19,381 nt of DNA, taken from the NCBI GenBank assembly GCA_003598085.1, contig QZKU01000010.1, positions 1-19,381 on the forward strand, read 5' to 3'. Positions 6,442 through 17,199 of this stretch are shown one piece after another (within the stretch, counting starts at the first letter, position 1; the number at the start of each line of letters is the position of its first letter). The notes below the pieces were generated by a model, which worked only from the letters and a program-made list of their open reading frames with translations, searched no databases and had not been told where the DNA came from. The position numbers were made by a program, and so were the translations under genes. Source of the stretch: Candidatus Abyssobacteria bacterium SURF_5 (GTDB lineage Bacteria; Abyssobacteria; SURF-5).

Positions 6442-7338
6442 ATGGAAGTGAATTTCGGATATCTGCTGAAAACCCTGCGAATAGAGGCGGGAATTGGGTT
6501 GAGGGAATTATCCAGGAGTATCGATATCTCCCCGAGTTATCTCAGCATGATCGAGAACGGGCAACAGCCGCCGCCGACAGCCGCGAGAATAGCGCAGATA
6601 GAGCAGGCGTTAAGTCTGCCAAAAGGATACTTATTTTCATTGGCTCAGGACCTGGATCCTGACCTTGTTTCCTACATCCAGGCGGTGCCTGAGGTGAGGG
6701 ATTTTCTTTATGTTGCAAAAGAGAAGGGGATGCGTTCGAGCGATTTTACCCGGCTGTCGGGCTTGGTTAGTGCCTATGGGTTGGAGGGTTTGAATCTGAT
6801 TATCGGGAAAATGACTGCGTCAAACGGCGAGGAGATCGGATCGCGTGGCCAGAACCACGGGGTTCTGGGGCCGTTTCTCTGGCCATTCCTGACGGAGAAA
6901 TTGATTTTCGACTTGACAGGCGTCGAGGAAAAGAGCACATTTTTAGAATATGCAGTCGAACGACTTGCCGAACAAGTAGAGGGGCTGGATGCGGGGAAGA
7001 TTCTGGGGGATTTATTACAGCGCGAGAAGGCGGCCAGCACCGGTATCGGTCATGGAATTGCGGTGCCGCACGCATATTCGACAGGGCTTGAAGGAATGAT
7101 TGTAGCTCTATTTCGGGTGCCGGAAGGTCTGGATTTCGGTTCGATTGACGAGAAGCCGGTGCGTTTGGTTTTTATTTTGGCGGGTCCTCGATCTGATGAG
7201 TTATTGCATCTGAAGCTGCTGGCGCGGATCGCCAGGCTGTTCAGCCACAACAGCATTTATGAGAGAATTCTGAAAGCGCCTGCGCACAAGGAGGTCCTTT
7301 CGATATTCAGGTCGGCCGAGATGTGCCTGCCGTACTGA
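6442..7338 (+). CDS. XRE helix-turn-helix / PTS EIIA (fructose-nitrogen type) fusion regulator
   Basis: A 298-residue cytoplasmic protein with two recognisable domains. Residues about 5-62 form a Cro/C1-type HTH (LLKTLRIEAGIGLRELSRSI, then SPSYLSMIENGQQPP). Residues about 150-296 form a type-2 EIIA domain: TEKLIFDLTG, LLQREKAASTGIGHGIAVPH, and the closing HLKLLARIARLFSH. The phospho-acceptor histidine of the family is His210 in GIAVPH; His204 lies six residues earlier. This suggests a DNA-binding regulator whose activity follows the phosphorylation state of a PTS or PTS-Ntr phosphorelay. The linker (about 65-148) has no family I recognise. A strong GAGGAGGT site at 6432-6439 lies only 3 bases before ATG 6442 and 9 before the in-frame GTG 6448; either could be the start. 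It diverges from the ligase gene and precedes the zinc-ribbon gene. Confidence 0.85.
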   Translation: MEVNFGYLLKTLRIEAGIGLRELSRSIDISPSYLSMIENGQQPPPTAARIAQIEQALSLPKGYLFSLAQDLDPDLVSYIQAVPEVRDFLYVAKEKGMRSSDFTRLSGLVSAYGLEGLNLIIGKMTASNGEEIGSRGQNHGVLGPFLWPFLTEKLIFDLTGVEEKSTFLEYAVERLAEQVEGLDAGKILGDLLQREKAASTGIGHGIAVPHAYSTGLEGMIVALFRVPEGLDFGSIDEKPVRLVFILAGPRSDELLHLKLLARIARLFSHNSIYERILKAPAHKEVLSIFRSAEMCLPY

Positions 7339-7950: not shown

Positions 7951-10881
7951 TCAAGATTTTGACAGTTTCTCCTGTTTGAGCCGGCATTCGAGCCAGGTTC
8001 TCAGACGATCCTCGAGCGGCCCGATCCACTGCTCAATCCGTTTGAAATCGGCGTTCAGCAGGGCCTCTTTATGTTCGGCGGAAAGATCGTAGGCGATCAG
8101 GGCGCCTGCGGGATTCTCGGCGAGAGCGGTGAGAAAGGCATTATCCTCGGCCGCCCGTTCGAGCACCGCGAGCACGGCTTTGACGGAGGCCACTTTATAT
8201 TCAGGGATTTTGGCGACCGGATCGAAGACCGGATTGGTGAGAAGATTGGCCGGCGCATCGAGCCAATGGAAAGCCATGAACGCTTGCCCCGGGTTGACGC
8301 GAGGGGTTGTTTTAGCCTTGGTCTGAACCTTTCCGCGCCGCGATGAGAGGGAGACGATATCGCCCTCCCGGATGCCGAGTTGAGCGGCATCGGCCGGGCT
8401 GAGCTCGACGCTGCTCTCCGGCTGGAGCGCCTCGAGCACTTTCGAGCGATGGCTCATGCTTCCCGTATGCCAGTGTTCGAGTATTCTGCCGGTCGTGAGG
8501 ACCAGCGGATACGCGCGAGAGGGCAGTTCCGCCGGCGGCTTGTCATGGAGGACATGGAATTTACCGCGTCCTCGCGTGAATTGTTTCTTGTGAAGGATCT
8601 CAGTCCCCTTGTGTTTCACATTTGGGCAAGGCCATTGCAGGCCGCCGTTGTTCAGGCGTTGATGACGGATGCCGCCGTAGATCGGGGTCAACTGCGCGAT
8701 CTCCTCCATAATCTTCGCGCTCGACTCATAATGCATCGGGTATCCCAGCCGCTGTGCGATTTCGCAGGTAATCACCCAATCCACCTTGGCCTGTCCGGGA
8801 GGCTCGATGGCTTTGCGAACGGTTTGTACTCGGCGTTCCGTATTGGTGAAAGTGCCGTCCTTTTCGGCAAAGCTTGTGGCAGGCAAAATGACATCGGCAT
8901 ATTCCGCGGTCCCCGTCAGAAACAGATCCTGAACGACGAGGAAATCGAGTTTTGAGAGAGCGGTCTTGGCGTGGTTAACGTCGGGCTCGCTCATGGTGGG
9001 ATTCTCTCCCATAATATACATCGCCTTGAGCCGTCCGCTCTGGATGGCGCCGAACATTTCAGTGAGGGTGAGGCCGGGCTTATCGCTCAATTTTACGCCC
9101 CACGCGTTCTCAAAGGTCTCCCGGACCTGCGCATTGGAGACGGCCAGATAACCGGGGAAGACGTTGGGAAGCGCGCCCATGTCGCACGAGCCCTGCACGT
9201 TATTCTGACCGCGCAGCGGCGAGAAGCCGGTTCCTCTTCTTCCCATGTTTCCCGTCAGCATCAGAAGATTGGCCACCGCCTTCACGTTGTCGGTGCCGGT
9301 CGTGTGTTGTGTAATCCCCATGCCGTAGAAGATGATCGCTCTCTTGGCTTTGCCGAAGAGCAGAGCCGCCTGTTTTATCTTTTCAGCAGGGACGCCGGTG
9401 ATTTCCTCGACATACTGCAGCGAGTACGGCTTGAGCGATTCGAGGAACGGCTCGAAGTCTTCCGTGCGCGTCTCGATGAATTTTTTGTCATGAAGGCCCG
9501 ATTCGACAATTTGTCGCATCATTCCATTGAGCAGAGCGACATCGGTGCCCGGAAAATGATTCAGGCAGACGTCGGCCATTTCGCCCAATTCAGTTATGCG
9601 GGGGTCCGCCACCAGCAGCTTTGCGCCGTTGGTTCGTGCGGCTCGTTTGATCCGTCTCCCGGCGATAGGGTGGCATGCGGTGGTATTTGAGCCGATCACA
9701 AACAGCATATCCGCATGCTCGATATCGGAGAAGGAATTGCTCATTGCGCCGGAACCGAAGGAGGCAAGCGCCGCCGTCACCGTTGAAGCGTGGCACAGGC
9801 GAGCGCAATGATCAACGTTATTCGTACCAATGACTGCGCGCGCAAATTTCTGGACGACGTAATTTTCTTCATTTGTGCACTTGGCGGAGCTGATTACTCC
9901 GATGGCATCCGGGCCGTGTTGTTCGCGGATAGAACCAAGCTTCTTCGCGACCAGATCGAGCGCCTCGTCCCATTCAGCCTCGCGAAACATTTCTTTCGCG
10001 TTGCCATTGAACGCCTGCTTCGGCGCGCCCTCTTTCCGGATGAGCGGCCTGGTGAGGCGGTCGGGATGATTGACGAAATCGAGGCCGAACCGGCCCTTGA
10101 CGCAAAGCCCCTCCTGATTCACGCCGTTTTCCTTTGCGCTTCGCACGCGAGCGATGTCGCGCCCGCGAACGCCGAGGTAAATCGAGCAACCGACGCCGCA
10201 ATAAGGACAAATTGTTTTAACCTCGCGCTCGGGAGCGAGGGCGGATTTGGGCGACAGGGCGCCGGTGGGACAATGTTCGAGGCACTCTCCGCAGTTCTGG
10301 CATTGCGAGAGGGCAAGCGGCTGGTTGCCGAAGGTGGAAACGACGGTATCCTTCCCTCTGAAGGCGAAATCGATCGCGCCGACTCCAGTCAGCTCACTGC
10401 AGACTCTGACGCATTTTCCGCAGAGAATGCACTTGTTCGGATCAAAATTAAAGGCGGGGTTCGACCTGTCAATTGGTTTGTCCAGGGTCCCTTTCCGCAT
10501 TCGTTCGAGCGAACTCTTCTGGACGCCGACGTACCGGGCCACCTGCAGAAGTTTGCACTCATCGTTCTTCTCGCACAGGAGGCAGTCGTATGGATGATTT
10601 GCGATCGCCAGTTCGACGATGGTCCTTCGAATCCTGCGGATTTCCTCGGTCTCCCTGTGCACAACCATCCCCTCCTGCGCCGGTGTGGTGCAGGACGTGG
10701 GCAAACCTCTCATTCCCTCGATCTGGACAATGCACAGGCGGCACGCACCGTACGGTTTCAGTTCAGGGTCATGGCACAGTGTCGGCACATAGAGGCCGGC
10801 CTTCTCGATTGCATCCAGGACCGTTGCTCCTTGCGGGACCTCGACCCGGCGCCCATCTATTGTAAGTGAGATTTGCTTCAC
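7951..10881 (-). CDS. fdhA: NAD-dependent formate dehydrogenase, alpha (catalytic) subunit with extra C-terminal module
   Basis: A 976-residue cytoplasmic molybdenum/tungsten enzyme oxidising formate to CO2, or running in reverse. The N-terminus is NuoG-like: a [2Fe-2S] ferredoxin (Cys36, 47, 50, 64), a His/Cys3 4Fe-4S site (His96, Cys100, 103, 109), and an 8-Cys double 4Fe-4S domain (Cys151, 154, 157, 161 and 194, 197, 200, 204). The bis-MGD oxidoreductase core follows, opened by CPYCGVGC (225-232). The metal ligand is Cys363 in HCARLCH, where many relatives use selenocysteine; GAMSN just downstream fits formate dehydrogenases. The dinucleotide-binding domain contains TTGRILEHWHTGSMSHRS. Residues 913-973 form an added helical module also found in the receiver protein starting this operon. 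The start is GTG 10881, supported by AAGGAGG eight bases upstream. The electron-transfer partners are the two preceding genes. Confidence 0.95.
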   Translation of the reverse strand: MKQISLTIDGRRVEVPQGATVLDAIEKAGLYVPTLCHDPELKPYGACRLCIVQIEGMRGLPTSCTTPAQEGMVVHRETEEIRRIRRTIVELAIANHPYDCLLCEKNDECKLLQVARYVGVQKSSLERMRKGTLDKPIDRSNPAFNFDPNKCILCGKCVRVCSELTGVGAIDFAFRGKDTVVSTFGNQPLALSQCQNCGECLEHCPTGALSPKSALAPEREVKTICPYCGVGCSIYLGVRGRDIARVRSAKENGVNQEGLCVKGRFGLDFVNHPDRLTRPLIRKEGAPKQAFNGNAKEMFREAEWDEALDLVAKKLGSIREQHGPDAIGVISSAKCTNEENYVVQKFARAVIGTNNVDHCARLCHASTVTAALASFGSGAMSNSFSDIEHADMLFVIGSNTTACHPIAGRRIKRAARTNGAKLLVADPRITELGEMADVCLNHFPGTDVALLNGMMRQIVESGLHDKKFIETRTEDFEPFLESLKPYSLQYVEEITGVPAEKIKQAALLFGKAKRAIIFYGMGITQHTTGTDNVKAVANLLMLTGNMGRRGTGFSPLRGQNNVQGSCDMGALPNVFPGYLAVSNAQVRETFENAWGVKLSDKPGLTLTEMFGAIQSGRLKAMYIMGENPTMSEPDVNHAKTALSKLDFLVVQDLFLTGTAEYADVILPATSFAEKDGTFTNTERRVQTVRKAIEPPGQAKVDWVITCEIAQRLGYPMHYESSAKIMEEIAQLTPIYGGIRHQRLNNGGLQWPCPNVKHKGTEILHKKQFTRGRGKFHVLHDKPPAELPSRAYPLVLTTGRILEHWHTGSMSHRSKVLEALQPESSVELSPADAAQLGIREGDIVSLSSRRGKVQTKAKTTPRVNPGQAFMAFHWLDAPANLLTNPVFDPVAKIPEYKVASVKAVLAVLERAAEDNAFLTALAENPAGALIAYDLSAEHKEALLNADFKRIEQWIGPLEDRLRTWLECRLKQEKLSKS
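7963..8145 (-). other. Shared C-terminal helical module, copy in the formate dehydrogenase alpha subunit
   Basis: Residues 913-973 of the alpha subunit. Key positions are D913, F916, L920, AL at 927-928, Y931, L933, K938, A940, L942, D945, I949, G954, L956, and RL at 967-968. It aligns without a gap to the end of the receiver protein at 13482-13664, with 18 of 61 positions identical by my count. Formate dehydrogenase alpha subunits normally end near the dinucleotide-binding domain, so this is an addition. The pattern Y-x-L-[ST]-x3-K-x-A-[IL]-L-x2-D loosely recalls small helical LigA-like domains; I do not claim membership. Confidence 0.65.
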
Positions 10882-11019
10882 CGCTCGTTCCTCCTTATCA
10901 GGTCCGAGGCCGCTCCCCTACGGGAGAGGCGGGAACGTCCGTGTATTGAGACGATGCGCGCGAACAGCACGTATATTTCAGCCTCGACTGTTGTGACAAG
11001 GCTTCATTCAGCTTCGGCA
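10882..11019 (-). other. 138-base leader between the NuoF-like and FdhA genes with a small hairpin
   Basis: This is a long gap for an operon whose other junctions are 5 and 45 bases. It holds a stem CTCCC (10913-10917) / GGGAG (10922-10926) with a four-base loop, 20 or so bases before the fdhA ribosome binding site at about 10890-10896. There is no T-tract, so it is not a clear terminator. It may mark RNA processing, separate tuning of catalytic-subunit expression, or nothing at all. Confidence 0.35.
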
Positions 11020-12888
11020 TTATTTCACCATCACACTATCGAATTTGCACAGTTGATAGCACGTACCGCATTTGGTACACAGTGTCTGATCTATCGCGTG
11101 GGGTTGCTTCTTTTCGCCCGTAATCGCTCCGACCGGGCATTTGCGGGCGCAGGCGGTGCACCCGGTGCAGGAATCGGGGTCGATCTCATAATGAAAGAGA
11201 TGCTTGCAGACGCCGGCCGGACATTTGCCTTCGATGACATGCTTTTCGTATTCCGGCATGAAGTATCGAAGAGTCGTTTTTACCGGATTCGGCGCGGTTT
11301 GTCCAAGGCCGCACAAAGATCCTTTCTGGACGGCCTCACAGACGCGCTCGAGCAGTTCGAGATCGGCGGGCTGCCCATTTCCATCGCAGATGTCCTGGAC
11401 GACGTCGAGCATCTGTTTGATGCCCAGGCGGCACGGCATGCACTTGCCGCACGATTCGGACTTGGTGAAGCCAAGGAAGTAGCGGGCCATATCGACGATG
11501 CAGGTGTCCTCGTCCATCACGACCATACCGCCGGAGCCCATGATTGAGCCGGCCTGCGCGAGCGACTCGTAATCGACCGGGAGGTGCAGCAGCTCCGCCG
11601 GTATGCAGCCGCCGGACGGGCCGCCGGTTTGCACCGCTTTCAGGCGTTTGCCCTTTCGGACGCCGCCCCCGATGTCGTTAATTACCTCTTCGAGTTTGAT
11701 CCCCATCGGGACTTCGATGAGACCGGTGCGGTTGATTTTTCCGGCGAGCGAGAAGGTTTTGGTGCCGCGGCTTTTCTCGGTGCCGTATGAGGCGTACCAG
11801 CGGGCGTCACGCTCGAGGATCGCCGAAACATTGCCGAAGGTTTCGACGTTATTGATGTTGGTCGGTTTTCCCCAGAGGCCCGCCTGTGCGGGGAAAGGCG
11901 GGCGCGAGCGCGGCATGCCTCTGGCGCCCTCGATGGACGCCATAAGAGCGGTTTCCTCGCCGCATACAAAAGCTCCGGCGCCTTCTTTTATTTTGATTTC
12001 GAAATTAAAGCCGCTGCCCAGGATATTCTTTCCGAGCAAGCCATACTTGCGCATTTGTTTGATGGCGAGCACAAGCCGTTCGACGGCCAGCGGATATTCG
12101 GCGCGGATATAGATATATCCTTCGCTTGCCCCGATTGCATACGCCCCGATAACCATTCCTTCGAGAACCGCGTGCGGATCGCTCTCCAGCAGTGACCGGT
12201 CCATGAAAGCGCCCGGGTCGCCTTCATCGGCGTTGCAGATGATGTATTTTTGTGTGCCGTGCGCCTTCCTGGCGAACTCCCATTTCAAGCCGGTCGGGAA
12301 ACCTGCGCCTCCGCGCCCTCTGAGGCCGGATTCTTTCACCTCTTTGATGACCGCCTCCGGGGTCATCGAGAGAGCCTTGTTGAGGCCGCTGTATCCGCCG
12401 CGCGCGATATACTCGTCGATATTTTCGGGATCGATCAACCCGCAGTTCCGGAGGGCGATGCGGACCTGGGGGCGAATCATCGGGAGCTCGGAAAAGCGGG
12501 GGATTCCGTCAATGGAGCCATTTCCGTTGGCCGAGTTTTCGGCGAGAGTACAGATACTCCATTCGGCCTTGGGATCATCCTTGAGCAGATAACTTGTAAG
12601 TATTTGTTCCGCTTTTTTGGGGGTGAGATCGCCGTAGTAGATAAACGGCCGGCCGGGTTTTCGGACGGCCATGATCGGCTCGAGATAACACATGCCGATG
12701 CAACCCACCTTGATGATGCGTGCAAGCGGGTCGATGTCTTTGAGGGTGCTCTCGATAGTTGCGAGTACAGCTTCGGCGCCGGCCGCTCGTCCGCACGTTC
12801 CCATGCCGATATGGATCAGGGGGTGCTCGAGATTCGAGAGGTCGCGCCAGTACGTGTCCGCTTTCGCCTTTATGCTGGCAAAGTCCAT
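11020..12888 (-). CDS. NuoF/HydB-type NADH-binding flavoprotein subunit of the formate dehydrogenase
   Basis: A 622-residue cytoplasmic diaphorase subunit passing electrons between NAD(H) and the catalytic subunit. Domains in order: a thioredoxin-like [2Fe-2S] domain (TCGRAAG, Cys32; GCIGMC, Cys63 and Cys67); the 51-kDa core with glycine-rich NADH/FMN motifs GRGGAGFPTG (191-200), CNADEGDPGAF and GAGAFVCGEETAL; an SLBB-type segment; the N3 4Fe-4S site (Cys480, 483, 486, 526); and a C-terminal 2[4Fe-4S] ferredoxin (Cys574, 577, 580, 584 and 604, 607, 610, 614). The extra N- and C-terminal domains are as in HydB of bifurcating hydrogenases rather than plain NuoF. The start is ATG 12888, with AAGGA eight bases upstream; an in-frame TTG at 12909 would overlap the preceding gene. 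It lies 5 bases after the NuoE-like stop, indicating translational coupling. Confidence 0.93.
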   Translation of the reverse strand: MDFASIKAKADTYWRDLSNLEHPLIHIGMGTCGRAAGAEAVLATIESTLKDIDPLARIIKVGCIGMCYLEPIMAVRKPGRPFIYYGDLTPKKAEQILTSYLLKDDPKAEWSICTLAENSANGNGSIDGIPRFSELPMIRPQVRIALRNCGLIDPENIDEYIARGGYSGLNKALSMTPEAVIKEVKESGLRGRGGAGFPTGLKWEFARKAHGTQKYIICNADEGDPGAFMDRSLLESDPHAVLEGMVIGAYAIGASEGYIYIRAEYPLAVERLVLAIKQMRKYGLLGKNILGSGFNFEIKIKEGAGAFVCGEETALMASIEGARGMPRSRPPFPAQAGLWGKPTNINNVETFGNVSAILERDARWYASYGTEKSRGTKTFSLAGKINRTGLIEVPMGIKLEEVINDIGGGVRKGKRLKAVQTGGPSGGCIPAELLHLPVDYESLAQAGSIMGSGGMVVMDEDTCIVDMARYFLGFTKSESCGKCMPCRLGIKQMLDVVQDICDGNGQPADLELLERVCEAVQKGSLCGLGQTAPNPVKTTLRYFMPEYEKHVIEGKCPAGVCKHLFHYEIDPDSCTGCTACARKCPVGAITGEKKQPHAIDQTLCTKCGTCYQLCKFDSVMVK

Positions 12889-12893
12889 GGCAA

Positions 12894-13433
12894 TTATCCT
12901 TCCCGGCAACTCACTTCAAGAGTTTCGCCGGCGCCTGATTCAGCCTGGCGAAGCTCGTCCAAAAGCTCAGTCGTTTTGGCTGCAGTCATGAGAGCGTAGA
13001 CGTGGTCATTGACTACGACCACCGGCGCAAGAGCGCAGCAACCGAAACATGCGACGGTTTCCAATGTGAAGAGCCCGTCCTTCGTGGTCTGGCCCGGAGT
13101 CACCTGGAGGTAGTTCTGAATGTGATCCAGGAGCAGGTCGGACCCGCTCACGTGACAGGCGGTGCCCCGGCAGACTTTTATAATGTACTTTCCGATTGGC
13201 TGAAGCCTGAATTGGGCGTAGAAGGTAGCGACGCCGTACACGCTTGCGGGCGAAAGCCGGGTCAGCCGCGCGATTTCAAGGAGCGCGTTCTGGGGCAAAT
13301 ATCCAAACTCCTTTTGCACCATCTGCAGCATCGGGATCAGGTTTGCAGGTTTTCCGTCGAATCCCGCCAAAAGCTCCGAGACCCGGCCGTTTCCATCGTC
13401 GCTGGTAATCATATCCAAAGCACTTAGTGTCAT
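12894..13433 (-). CDS. NuoE/HydC-type [2Fe-2S] thioredoxin-fold subunit
   Basis: A 179-residue subunit that docks on the flavoprotein subunit. The N-terminal helical part (LIPMLQMVQKEFGYLPQNAL, then RLTRLSPASVYGVATFYAQF) is the standard NuoE fold start. The [2Fe-2S] ligands are Cys88 and Cys93 (CRGTAC) and Cys129 and Cys133 (CFGCC). In formate dehydrogenases of the FdsGBA type this corresponds to the gamma subunit. The length is normal for the family. ATG 13433 has GAGGAG seven bases upstream. It is followed at 5 bases by the NuoF-like gene and preceded at 45 bases by the receiver-protein gene, so all four genes look like one transcript. Confidence 0.93.
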   Translation of the reverse strand: MTLSALDMITSDDGNGRVSELLAGFDGKPANLIPMLQMVQKEFGYLPQNALLEIARLTRLSPASVYGVATFYAQFRLQPIGKYIIKVCRGTACHVSGSDLLLDHIQNYLQVTPGQTTKDGLFTLETVACFGCCALAPVVVVNDHVYALMTAAKTTELLDELRQAESGAGETLEVSCREG

Positions 13434-13478
13434 GCGCTTGCTCCTCTTGGAAGTGGACTCATTTCGAACAGCCGGGGC

Positions 13479-14153
13479 TTACCATGCCTCTCGCTCGAGG
13501 CGTTTGTTTATGAACGCGAGCTGTTCTTGCGTAAGTTCGCCAACATGCTTGCGAATCCATTCCAGATCGCCGGACAGTATCGCCGCTTTAGCTTGGCGCG
13601 TGAGCTTGTAGCCCTCGAGGGCTTGCGAACCTTTTTCCACAAGTTCGCCCCAGAATTCGGAATCCTTCGCTGTACGCTCGAGGACCCGGATCACTTCCCG
13701 TTTTTGAATCAGCCGGCCCTCGGTGGTCTCGGTGAGAAGGTGCTCCATCGAAGCCCCCTGTCGCGATTTCAGGGCGGCAGCGACGGCTGACTTAAATTCG
13801 TCCTCGGTGAAGGGTTTGCGCAGGTAATCGATCACACCGATTTTCACGGCCTTGACCGCGGAGGCGACAGAAGGATAGCCGGTGATGACGAGCAGCTTGG
13901 TTTCGGGACGCTCGATGCTGATCTCTTTAAGAACGTCCATGCCGTCGATATCCGGCAGCCGGAGATCTGCCACCACAAGGCTAAAGCCGTTGCTCCTGAA
14001 GGTTTCAAGCGCGCCTAAGCCTGTCATTGCCAGCGCGACCTCATATCCTTCCTCTCGCAGAACCATCTGAAGCCCTTTGCCCACATTTACTTCGTCCTCA
14101 ACGAGCAAAATGTGGGGTTTTTCGGCTGTTTTTTCCATCGTTGCCGGGCTCAT
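13479..14153 (-). CDS. Receiver-domain protein with a C-terminal module shared with formate dehydrogenase
   Basis: About 224 residues. The first 125 are a CheY-like receiver: HILLVEDE acidic pocket (Glu19, Asp20), phospho-acceptor Asp63 in VVADLRLPD, Thr91 in ITGYPS and Lys113 in LRKPF. No DNA-binding or enzymatic output domain follows. Instead, after a linker, residues 164-224 form a helical module (DSEFWGEL, then ALEGYKLT, KAAILSGDLEWI, and a closing LEREAW) that aligns without gaps to the end of the FdhA encoded three genes downstream. I infer a signalling protein that contacts the enzyme or a common partner, rather than a transcription factor. The start was set at ATG 14153 because AAAGGAG lies 8 bases before it; ATG 14159 is only 2 bases from that site. 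It is the first gene of the operon, downstream of the sigma54 promoter. Confidence 0.85.
   Translation of the reverse strand: MSPATMEKTAEKPHILLVEDEVNVGKGLQMVLREEGYEVALAMTGLGALETFRSNGFSLVVADLRLPDIDGMDVLKEISIERPETKLLVITGYPSVASAVKAVKIGVIDYLRKPFTEDEFKSAVAAALKSRQGASMEHLLTETTEGRLIQKREVIRVLERTAKDSEFWGELVEKGSQALEGYKLTRQAKAAILSGDLEWIRKHVGELTQEQLAFINKRLEREAW
13482..13664 (-). other. Shared C-terminal helical module, copy in the receiver protein
   Basis: Residues 164-224 of the receiver protein. Identities with the FdhA copy: D, F, L and E in the first ten columns; A, L and Y in the second ten; L, K, A and L in the third; D and I in the fourth; G and L in the fifth; R, L and E in the sixth. Most other columns are conservative (I/L, F/L, V/I, T/S, F/W). 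It replaces the usual output domain of a response regulator. Confidence 0.65.
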
Positions 14154-14214
14154 AGTCATTACTCCTTTTCAGGTAACCCCATGTGTACCTGTTTCTCTCA
14201 CTTCTCTCAATAGG

Positions 14215-14228
14215 GCAAGAACGATGCC
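14215..14228 (-). promoter_or_regulatory. Sigma54 (-24/-12) promoter for the formate dehydrogenase operon
   Basis: Minus-strand sequence CGGCATCGTTCTTGCC matches the consensus TGGCACG-N4-TTGCW at GGCA and TTGC, with exactly ten bases between the GG (14228-14227) and the GC (14216-14215). Transcription would begin near 14203, about 50 bases before the receiver-protein start. The divergent neighbour encodes a sigma54 activator, which is the expected partner. Confidence 0.6.
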
Positions 14229-14322
14229 GAAGAAAAACGGCGAAGAAAGAGCTGAAATTGGTTGTTTTTTACCGATTTTTGCTGCTGAAATGGGTATTTT
14301 GCCGATATAGAGCGGGATCGTC

Positions 14323-14401: not shown

Positions 14402-14553
14402 AAAATATATAGCCGTAGCGTCTTTACACTGACGTTTTTCCTGGGGGGCTTGGGGCTGGAGGGATGAAGTTTGTTGGGGCGATCAGAAGGCAGTTTTTAC
14501 GTGAGAAAGAGGAAATAAAGGGCGCCTTTTTCTTGTCGTGAGTGGAGAGCACC

Positions 14554-15780
14554 ATGTACTCGTCAATAAATATACATACATTTCATGATATACGGACGTC
14601 GCTGCATTCGAGCGATCAGGTGAGTGAGGTTTTGAAGTGGATCGCCAAGAAGGCCGCCGATGTTATCGGGGCGAAGGGCGCGCTGGTGCGCATATTCGAT
14701 CTGGAAAAGAATGAATTTGACGCGGCTGCGGCCTATGGCCTGGGCGATCTGTACCTTTCAAGCAAACTACTGTCGCGTCCGGAAATTATCATGGACCTTT
14801 GCCAGTTGAACCAGATCGTGATTATGGACGACATCCTGCATGATCCCCGGGTGCAGCATCCGCGCCAGGCGTGGGAAGAAGGCATCCGGATGATGGTCGA
14901 TGTTCCGTTGAGCATCAAGGATCAGATTGTGGGAATAATCCGGGTGTATCTGACGGAAATCCGCAAGCTTTCCAAGCAGGAACTGAATTTTCTGGTGACC
15001 TGTGCGACGTGCGGGGCGTGCGCGATTGAAAAGGCGCGCGTGATGGAGACGCAGAGATCGCAGTATGATCATCTGGCGATCCAGACGGAGAAGCTTTCGG
15101 CTTTGGGGCGAATGGCTGCCGGTATTGCCCATGAGATAAACAATCCGCTTGCCGGGATTCTGTTATACAGCACGAATCTATTGAAAAAGGTCTCGCAGGA
15201 GAACCCGCTGAGGGAGGGGCTGGAGATCATCGTGCATGAGACGCAGCGGTGTGGGAAGATCATTCAGGAGCTTCTGGAGTTTTCGCGCGAGGGTGAACCG
15301 AACAAAGAACTGGTGGATATCAACTCGGTCATTGAGAAGGCGCTCAGCATCCTTGAGAACGAGTTTCGTCTTCACCACATTGAGATTCGGAAGCAGTTGA
15401 CCGAGGGGATGGCCGAGATCCTTATAGATGCGAACCAGATGGAGCAGGTTTTTGTGAATCTGCTGTTGAACGCGGTGGAGGCCATCCAGGAGCGCGGCGT
15501 GATCACAATCCGGAGCCGTTTCGGGCTGGACGGGAAGAGTGAGATCGTCGAGATCGAAGATACGGGGTGCGGGATACCTCCGGAGGATCTGCCGCGAATA
15601 TTCGAGCCGTTCTTCTCGAGCAAGGCGTCCGGTACGGGACTGGGGCTTGCGGTGAGTTTTGGCATTATACAGAAGCATCAGGGTCATATCAGGGTTTCGA
15701 GCGAGGCCGGGCGCGGCGCCCGTTTCACAGTCGAGTTGCCGCTTCTTCCGGCCAAGAGCGCAATCGAGATACTTGGGTAA
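14554..15780 (+). CDS. GAF-domain sensor histidine kinase (NtrB-like), cytosolic
   Basis: 408 residues with no membrane segment, so it senses an internal signal. An N-terminal GAF domain (about 15-165) is followed by a HisKA dimerisation domain with phospho-histidine His193 in AAGIAHEINNPLAG, and a HATPase domain: N box NQMEQVFVNLLLNAVEAI, G1 DTGCGIP, F box FEPFFSSK, G2 GTGLGLAVSFG. Near the end of the GAF domain is CATCGAC, giving Cys150, Cys153 and Cys156 in a CxxCxxC array where GAF domains normally have small residues; it may bind a metal or Fe-S cluster or act as a thiol switch. ATG 14554 was chosen because GGAG lies six bases before it; the GTG at 14542 has no such site. The stop is 3 bases before the sigma54 activator, its evident partner. 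Confidence 0.92.
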   Translation: MYSSINIHTFHDIRTSLHSSDQVSEVLKWIAKKAADVIGAKGALVRIFDLEKNEFDAAAAYGLGDLYLSSKLLSRPEIIMDLCQLNQIVIMDDILHDPRVQHPRQAWEEGIRMMVDVPLSIKDQIVGIIRVYLTEIRKLSKQELNFLVTCATCGACAIEKARVMETQRSQYDHLAIQTEKLSALGRMAAGIAHEINNPLAGILLYSTNLLKKVSQENPLREGLEIIVHETQRCGKIIQELLEFSREGEPNKELVDINSVIEKALSILENEFRLHHIEIRKQLTEGMAEILIDANQMEQVFVNLLLNAVEAIQERGVITIRSRFGLDGKSEIVEIEDTGCGIPPEDLPRIFEPFFSSKASGTGLGLAVSFGIIQKHQGHIRVSSEAGRGARFTVELPLLPAKSAIEILG

Positions 15781-15783
15781 GAA

Positions 15784-17199
15784 ATGGAAAAAGTATCAAT
15801 ACTTGTCATAGACGATGAACAAATCATCTGCAAGGGCTGCCAACTGACACTGGCCGGCGAGCAACGGACAGTTGACTGTTGTTCTACGGGAACAGCGGGC
15901 ATGAACGCGTTGCGCACCGGCTCGTATGATGTCGTGCTGCTCGACATGAAATTGCCGGACATGGACGGCATGGAGATATTGCGCGCGGTCCGCAAGGAGA
16001 AACCGCGCATCTCGGTCGTCGTAATGACCGGATATTCAACGATCGCGAACGCGGTCGAGGCGATGAAGCTGGGCGCCTTTGATTATCTGACCAAGCCGTT
16101 CACTGACGACCAATTGTCAATCTCTGTCGAAAAGGCAATTGAAAACAAGCGTCTGGTCGAAGAAAACTACTCGCTGCGGCAGGAGTTGCTGATCCGGAGC
16201 GGGTTCAACAACATTGTCGGAGCGAATCCGGCCATTCTGCGAATTTTTGATCAAATACAAAAAATGGCGCCGTCAGACAGCACGGTCCTTATCTTCGGGG
16301 AGAGCGGGACCGGAAAAGAGCTTTTCGCCGCCGCCATTCACGCCCACAGCCCGAGGGCAGCCAAACAGTTTCTGGCCGTCGACTGCAGCGCGCTTTCGCC
16401 GGGCCTTCTTGAGAGCGAGCTTTTCGGGCATGTGAGAGGGGCCTTTACCGGCGCAATACAGAACAAGACCGGCATATTCGAGACGGCCAACGGGGGAACG
16501 CTGTTTCTTGACGACATCGCAAATGTGAGTCTCGATATCCAGGCGAAGCTTCTGCGGGTGCTCGAAGCTCACGAGTACAAGCCGGTGGGCGCAAGCGTGT
16601 TCAAGAGGAGCACCGCGCGGATCATTGCCGCCACAAACAAAGATCTGAGAAAGCTGGTTGATGAGGGAGTTTTCAGGGAAGATTTGTTTTACCGGCTGAA
16701 CGTGTTTCCGATATACCTGCCGCCGCTGCGCGAGCGCAGAGACGACATTCCGATGCTCGCCTATCATTTCCTGAGACATTTCTGCCGCAAGACCGGCAAA
16801 CGAATCAATGGATTCACCGATGACGCGCTCGAAACGCTGGTGAATTACGATTGGCCCGGCAACGTGCGGCAGCTCAAGAACGTGATCGAGCGGCTGGTGA
16901 TCCTGTCGGATTCGGAGACACTGGATCTGGTGTATCTGCTCGATCATTTCCAGATGAAGCGGTCGCTGAAGCCGGACGCGATCCCGTCGACGATCGAGGA
17001 CCTGAACGCGATAAAAAAGGATATTCTGGAAACCACCTTCGGCCAGATCCAGAAGGCATTTATTTTGAAGGCGCTCCAGGCGTGTAACGGAAACATCTCG
17101 CGCGCGGCGGAAAGCGTCGGAATGCAACGGCCCAATTTCCACGCCCTCATGCGCAAGCATAAGATTTCAGCCAAAGACCTGAAGAAACAGATCAGTTAA
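15784..17199 (+). CDS. NtrC-family sigma54-dependent response regulator
   Basis: 471 residues with the full three-domain layout. Receiver: Asp10, Asp11, phospho-acceptor Asp54 in LLDMKLPDMDG, Thr82, Lys104. Central AAA+ domain: Walker A GESGTGKE (172-179), sigma54-contact loop GAFTGA (219-224), Walker B LFLDDI (Asp243, Asp244), and arginine fingers around FREDLFYRLN (Arg298, Arg304). C-terminal Fis-type helix-turn-helix: ALQACNGNISRAAESVGMQRPNFHALMRK (about 433-461). The usual Walker B is LFLDEI; here Glu is replaced by Asp. The protein should oligomerise when phosphorylated by the adjacent kinase and activate sigma54 promoters, most likely the one at 14215-14228. ATG 15784 follows the kinase stop by 3 bases, with only a weak GGGTAAG upstream, suggesting coupled translation. 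Confidence 0.95.
   Translation: MEKVSILVIDDEQIICKGCQLTLAGEQRTVDCCSTGTAGMNALRTGSYDVVLLDMKLPDMDGMEILRAVRKEKPRISVVVMTGYSTIANAVEAMKLGAFDYLTKPFTDDQLSISVEKAIENKRLVEENYSLRQELLIRSGFNNIVGANPAILRIFDQIQKMAPSDSTVLIFGESGTGKELFAAAIHAHSPRAAKQFLAVDCSALSPGLLESELFGHVRGAFTGAIQNKTGIFETANGGTLFLDDIANVSLDIQAKLLRVLEAHEYKPVGASVFKRSTARIIAATNKDLRKLVDEGVFREDLFYRLNVFPIYLPPLRERRDDIPMLAYHFLRHFCRKTGKRINGFTDDALETLVNYDWPGNVRQLKNVIERLVILSDSETLDLVYLLDHFQMKRSLKPDAIPSTIEDLNAIKKDILETTFGQIQKAFILKALQACNGNISRAAESVGMQRPNFHALMRKHKISAKDLKKQIS

Follow-up and report, generated by a model that had tools for sequence, protein, structure and literature searches.

The operon described here encodes a response regulator (RR) and the alpha subunit of a formate dehydrogenase (FdhA) that appeared, on first inspection, to end in the same helical module, and the question raised by this locus is whether the likeness is real and what a receiver protein and a metabolic enzyme would gain by sharing it. 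Few receivers are known to exert their effect on a metabolic enzyme directly. The coordinates of the features found in the window (the whole 19,381-nucleotide stretch of DNA that was analysed) and in related loci are collected in Table 1.

Table 1. Coordinates of annotated features in the window and, where a locus number is given, in related loci.
Feature	Location	Strand	Remarks
RR	13479..14159	-	Receiver and shared tail; PF00072, E 1e-24
Receiver domain of RR	residues 17-126, nt 13782-14111	-	PF00072
Shared module on RR	13482..13712, residues 150-226	-	NF038399, 22.9 bits, E 7e-5; five predicted helices
FdhA, NAD-type formate dehydrogenase alpha subunit	7951..10881	-	TIGR01591, 863 bits (cut-off 666)
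Shared module on FdhA	7963..8190, residues 898-973	-	Beyond the normal end; NF038399, 40.5 bits (cut-off 40)
NuoF-like subunit	11020..12909	-	Same operon as RR and FdhA; PF01512, E 9e-48
NuoE-like subunit	12894..13433	-	Same operon as RR and FdhA; PF01257, E 3.5e-51
Sigma-54-like -24/-12 site upstream of RR, CGGCATCGTTCTTGCC	14214..14229	-	Consensus match only
GAF-HisKA-HATPase histidine kinase (HK)	14542..15780	+	Conserved neighbour in close loci
NtrC-type sigma-54 activator (receiver, AAA+, Fis HTH)	15784..17199	+	Conserved neighbour
Receiver-FocA-type formate/nitrite transporter fusions (PF00072 and PF01226)	L056:8769-10073; L115:8952-10232; L118:7078-8385; L119:2670-4073; L127:7834-9114		Each beside an RR-tail gene
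GcvH-like proteins with C-terminal module	L126:8462-9445; L129:8779-9849; L131:8374-9450; L133:8513-9415		Near HdrA-like and TGA-containing FdhA genes

The C-termini of RR and FdhA were found to be homologous helical modules of about 75 residues by both BLASTP and profile-profile comparison. BLASTP aligns residues 154-224 of RR with residues 901-971 of FdhA without gaps (24 of 71 identities, E 9e-9), and 18 of these identities lie inside the 61-residue segment proposed by the initial annotation, whose ungapped register (RR nt 13482-13664 against FdhA nt 7963-8145, 18 of 61 identities) is correct. Residue numbers of RR are given here from the longest ORF start at 14159 and are two higher than those of the initial annotation, which began at the ATG at 14153. 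The two tails reach a local score of 104, compared to a maximum of 56 over 5000 shuffles and to 39 for the runner-up when the C-termini of 12 window proteins were compared with each other. A profile-profile comparison had been set beforehand as a possible refutation of the relationship; in hhalign, the profile of 12 RR tails matched that of 10 FdhA tails with a probability of 98.2 and an E-value of 4.9e-14. Chance or a generic likeness between helices was rejected on the basis of these three comparisons. A search of the genome itself with the RR tail found RR and FdhA as the only two copies. We also rejected a recent origin of the FdhA tail by copying from the RR tail in the same operon, as the two fall into separate groups in a tree of this short domain and the similarity within operons is not raised. 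The mean scores of tail pairs are 101.5 within operons and 100.1 between operons, hence there is no sign of partner-specific co-evolution.

FdhA is an NAD-type alpha subunit, with its TIGR01591 match above the cut-off and with NuoE and NuoF partners in the operon. Position 363 is a cysteine; in many relatives a TGA stands there and splits their ORFs. The alignment with relatives of known structure (6tg9_A) is confined to residues 4-902 of FdhA, and eight to 41 residues follow the IPEYKV motif in tail-less homologues compared to 76 to 84 in the tailed ones, which bears out the suggestion that in FdhA the module extends the enzyme beyond its usual terminus. FdhA resembles the RcFDH-type NAD-dependent formate dehydrogenase (6tg9) over nearly the full chain and in its NuoE- and NuoF-like partners, whereas the additional C-terminal domain of about 75 residues and the receiver gene heading the operon set it apart. 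In a predicted model of FdhA, which is unreliable with a mean pLDDT of 48, the helices of the tail occur in the same order as in the RR tail.

Response_reg is the sole family above its cut-off on RR, and no DNA-binding domain was found among the families above cut-off. The module occupies the place of an output domain, as had been claimed. The receiver has the acidic pocket, phospho-acceptor Asp, Thr/Ser and Lys of a phosphorylatable receiver; D22, D65, T93 and K115 are conserved in the ten closest orthologues and D65 is kept in 43 of 47 aligned ORFs, while four of the 50 ORFs are GcvH fusions that have no receiver. The helices of the tail region in the RR model span residues 146-165, 167-181, 188-196, 199-205 and 211-225 (pLDDT about 80). 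Other response regulators that have no DNA-binding output likewise combine a canonical receiver with the absence of an HTH and are expected to act via protein contacts; RR differs from these in that its output domain is related to the Os1348 clan and is also found on the enzyme of the same operon.

The module appears, from its sequence, to be related to the Os1348/NHLP clan (NF038399), a known domain type in new places. The FdhA tail of the window and another FdhA tail (41.8 bits) exceed the curated cut-off of this family, the RR tail falls below it, and a match at E <= 0.01 was found in 14 of 20 diverse tails. PF14407 and the LigA-like borosin precursors match the module weakly. The pair had been thought undescribed, and this part stands in that the open-access papers searched yielded no description of an RR-FdhA pair, of a fusion between a receiver and FocA or of a link between Os1348 and formate, which is weak evidence of novelty; the module, however, appears to belong to a known family (NF038399), which the initial annotation had not recognised. 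Crystallised Os1348 of Pseudomonas sp. Os17 has six helices and forms a hydrophobic dimer, the stability of which its authors infer from calculated interface energies (PMC7726476); the 85-residue chain 6lk7 is likely the entry for this crystal. The module resembles Os1348 in sequence, with FdhA tails above the family cut-off, and in length and predicted helix order, although known members of the family are small stand-alone proteins discussed as RiPP or bacteriocin precursors, whereas the present copies are C-terminal modules on a receiver, an enzyme and other proteins beside formate genes. A Foldseek search with the RR model was dominated by the receiver, to which all the matches were due. 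Another small helical bundle that binds protein is the LigA-like domain of SonA, which has five helices (PMC8429565) and matches the module weakly (profile E 0.03). In SonA, the domain is an N-terminal leader followed by a core peptide and its partner is a methyltransferase, in contrast to the C-terminal position of the module here.

Close relatives of RR occur in a six-gene unit, with the NtrC-type and HK genes on one side and RR-NuoE-NuoF-FdhA on the other. Records that contain this unit bear titles such as Poribacteria, Deltaproteobacteria and Syntrophaceae, a spread that may point to horizontal transfer. The module was found in 34 of 395 sampled genomes from the phylum of G025, which we infer to be Desulfobacterota from its DsrD, and in three small phyla, those of G121, of G271 and of the window itself (three genomes); the three genomes of the phylum of G041 gave no match. 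Most of these genomes are MAGs, the loci are related and non-independent, and the phyla are unevenly sampled.

The FdhA tail is narrow in distribution, with 13 loci of one cassette type, all on FdhA of the NuoE-NuoF type. The initial annotation had named as support a recurrence of the module on receiver proteins and on FdhA or hydrogenase subunits in common neighbourhoods, and in each of the 12 FdhA-tail loci that could be assessed we found an RR tail on the contig that carries the FdhA tail (the contig of the thirteenth, L102, ends near the FdhA start), although the tailed cassettes are closely related and do not amount to 12 independent events. A profile search gave no tail match on 61 other FdhA in 33 genomes. 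In a simple count, all nine tailed FdhA lie near an RR tail compared to about 30 of 70 FdhA overall, giving p = 2e-4, which is not a true probability as the sequences are related. RR tails have a far wider distribution than FdhA tails and are also found next to tail-less FdhA, in loci such as L024 (a Desulfobulbaceae MAG), L029, L055, L064 and L108-L111. FdhA tails form one clade in the short-domain tree, apart from most RR tails and beside stand-alone Os1348 proteins, with modest support, and are more like stand-alone Os1348 than the RR tails are. As the FdhA tails form a clade apart and RR tails occur without tailed FdhA, the RR tail is independent of the FdhA tail, and the latter has the look of a later or separate acquisition.

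Copies of the module outside FdhA track formate genes. In about 32 of the 49 mapped loci that carry such a copy, an FdhA gene lies no more than about 10 kb away, compared to about 1% expected by chance, a rate derived from the 70 over-cut-off FdhA in 33 genomes (about 0.01 expected per 18 kb). The match is convincing within the stretch in 31 of the 49, with that of L126 lying just outside and those of L116 and L122 being weaker. Five further loci (L056, L115, L118, L119 and L127) have no FdhA in the examined stretch, nor NuoE or NuoF, and instead have a receiver fused to a FocA-type transporter. L134 and L135 have neither FdhA nor receiver-FocA in stretches that are long enough, and several of the remaining loci are short or at contig ends, so that absence there is weak evidence. 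The module forms a formate-associated group, and its main setting is the output position of a response regulator in which the residues for phosphorylation are intact.

Carriers other than RR and FdhA include GcvH-like proteins (PF01597 E 1.6e-18 and 7e-21 in the two tested), a receiver in L113 that is degenerate in some of the conserved residues, and a stand-alone protein in L130. A tandem arrangement of two copies was observed on an RR in L116 (9242-10144). Another cassette type was seen in L029, L055, L064, L065 and L066, consisting of RR-tail, an NfnB-like flavoprotein with a NuoF-type Fe-S region, a TGA-containing FdhA, a kinase and a single receiver. A stand-alone tail gene with an in-frame TAG lies upstream of NuoE in L125 (1411-1638), and a tail fragment of which only the C-terminal part is open lies upstream of NuoE in L054 (7539-7631); both may be pseudogenes or sequence errors. 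Pyrrolysine was rejected as an explanation of the TAG because the L125 genome has no PylS above the cut-off.

The initial annotation had suggested that RR mimics or competes with the tail of the enzyme. This does not hold as a general role, as RR tails are kept beside tail-less FdhA and beside receiver-FocA genes without FdhA, and the FdhA tail cannot then be the usual target. The reading that we prefer, with a probability of about 45%, is that the module is a formate-associated docking or dimerisation domain by which a phospho-switchable RR binds formate-handling complexes, with FdhA carrying the matching domain in the tailed cassettes. It draws on the homology of the module, on the Os1348 dimer and the SonA binding domain, on the absence of a DNA-binding domain and the conserved receiver residues, on the association with formate genes, on the RR tail in all assessable loci with an FdhA tail, and on the variety of carriers, as would be expected of a docking module. 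Weighing against it are the retention of RR tails where FdhA has none, the equal likeness of tail pairs within and between operons, the score of the RR tail below the family cut-off and the close relatedness of the tailed cassettes. The module would serve as the docking or dimerisation unit; the neighbouring HK, which is probably the cognate kinase of RR, would phosphorylate RR, and phosphorylated RR, without contact to DNA, would dock on a formate-handling complex and change how active it is, how it assembles or where it lies. In the tailed cassettes, RR and FdhA would most likely meet via their homologous tails, as Os1348 pairs with itself. The receiver-FocA fusions show that a receiver from such a neighbourhood can be joined to a protein that handles formate; this favours, short of proof for RR itself, action on proteins over DNA. 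According to work cited in PMC11841067, E. coli FocA is regulated through direct contact with PflB; there the channel is controlled by protein contact, whereas here receivers are fused to FocA beside RR-tail genes and an effect on transport is hypothetical. A bolder form, which we consider somewhat unlikely, is a docking code in which two-component systems would switch formate dehydrogenases, and via the receiver-FocA fusions formate channels, post-translationally by phospho-controlled Os1348-type pairing, here as a hetero-dimer of the RR and FdhA tails.

The conserved HK and NtrC-type neighbours would also suit a transcriptional feedback, in which RR would act within the HK/NtrC-type pathway as an anti-activator or phosphate sink and dimerise through its tail, and tailed FdhA would titrate RR, thereby coupling the amount of enzyme back to its own sigma-54 promoter. 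Ahead of RR, a sigma-54-like site occurs at a similar position in most tailed cassettes, and several other loci have one as well; the pattern shows no enrichment across the whole window, so the site upstream of RR rests on this recurrence. Many RR-tail loci, however, have no NtrC-type gene in the examined stretch and the receiver-FocA fusions in like neighbourhoods point to protein-level action, leaving this feedback rather doubtful. We regard as unlikely a common third partner, such as NuoE/NuoF, an HdrA- or NfnB-like subunit or a maturation factor, which both tails would bind with no mutual contact: RR tails beside tail-less FdhA, the module on GcvH-like proteins adjoining HdrA-like genes and the stand-alone copies that precede NuoE in L125 and, in fragmentary form, in L054 agree with it, but no neighbour is universal to all loci and the FocA loci have no NuoE/NuoF.

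Independent recruitment of a common small domain, for oligomerisation of FdhA and for dimerisation of RR with no functional link, would account for the separate clade of FdhA tails near stand-alone Os1348 and their greater likeness to it; the restriction of FdhA tails to RR-tail cassettes (12 of 12 assessable) and the lack of a tail match among the 61 other FdhA make it improbable. A role of the tails as leader-like domains that a RiPP-type peptide-modifying enzyme would recognise is very improbable. Clan members do include RiPP precursors, but the module does not show their arrangement of a leader followed by a core with modification enzymes nearby: it lies at the extreme C-terminus, where no core peptide follows, and none of the neighbours in the mapped loci was recognised as a RiPP maturase, in a screen that covered models other than RiPP-specific ones.

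The tails on response regulators constitute a family that recurs in four phyla, has a domain related to the Os1348 clan at the position of a DNA-binding output and tracks formate genes. This family makes post-translational phospho-regulation of formate dehydrogenases and formate channels open to direct test in syntrophic and acetogenic-type bacteria, and formate metabolism may be switched there through protein docking besides gene control. It also points to a role in docking for the clan, of which mostly RiPP precursors have been known. In the window, the formate cassette is adjoined at 6442-7338 by a gene for an HTH domain fused to a PTS EIIA type 2 domain.
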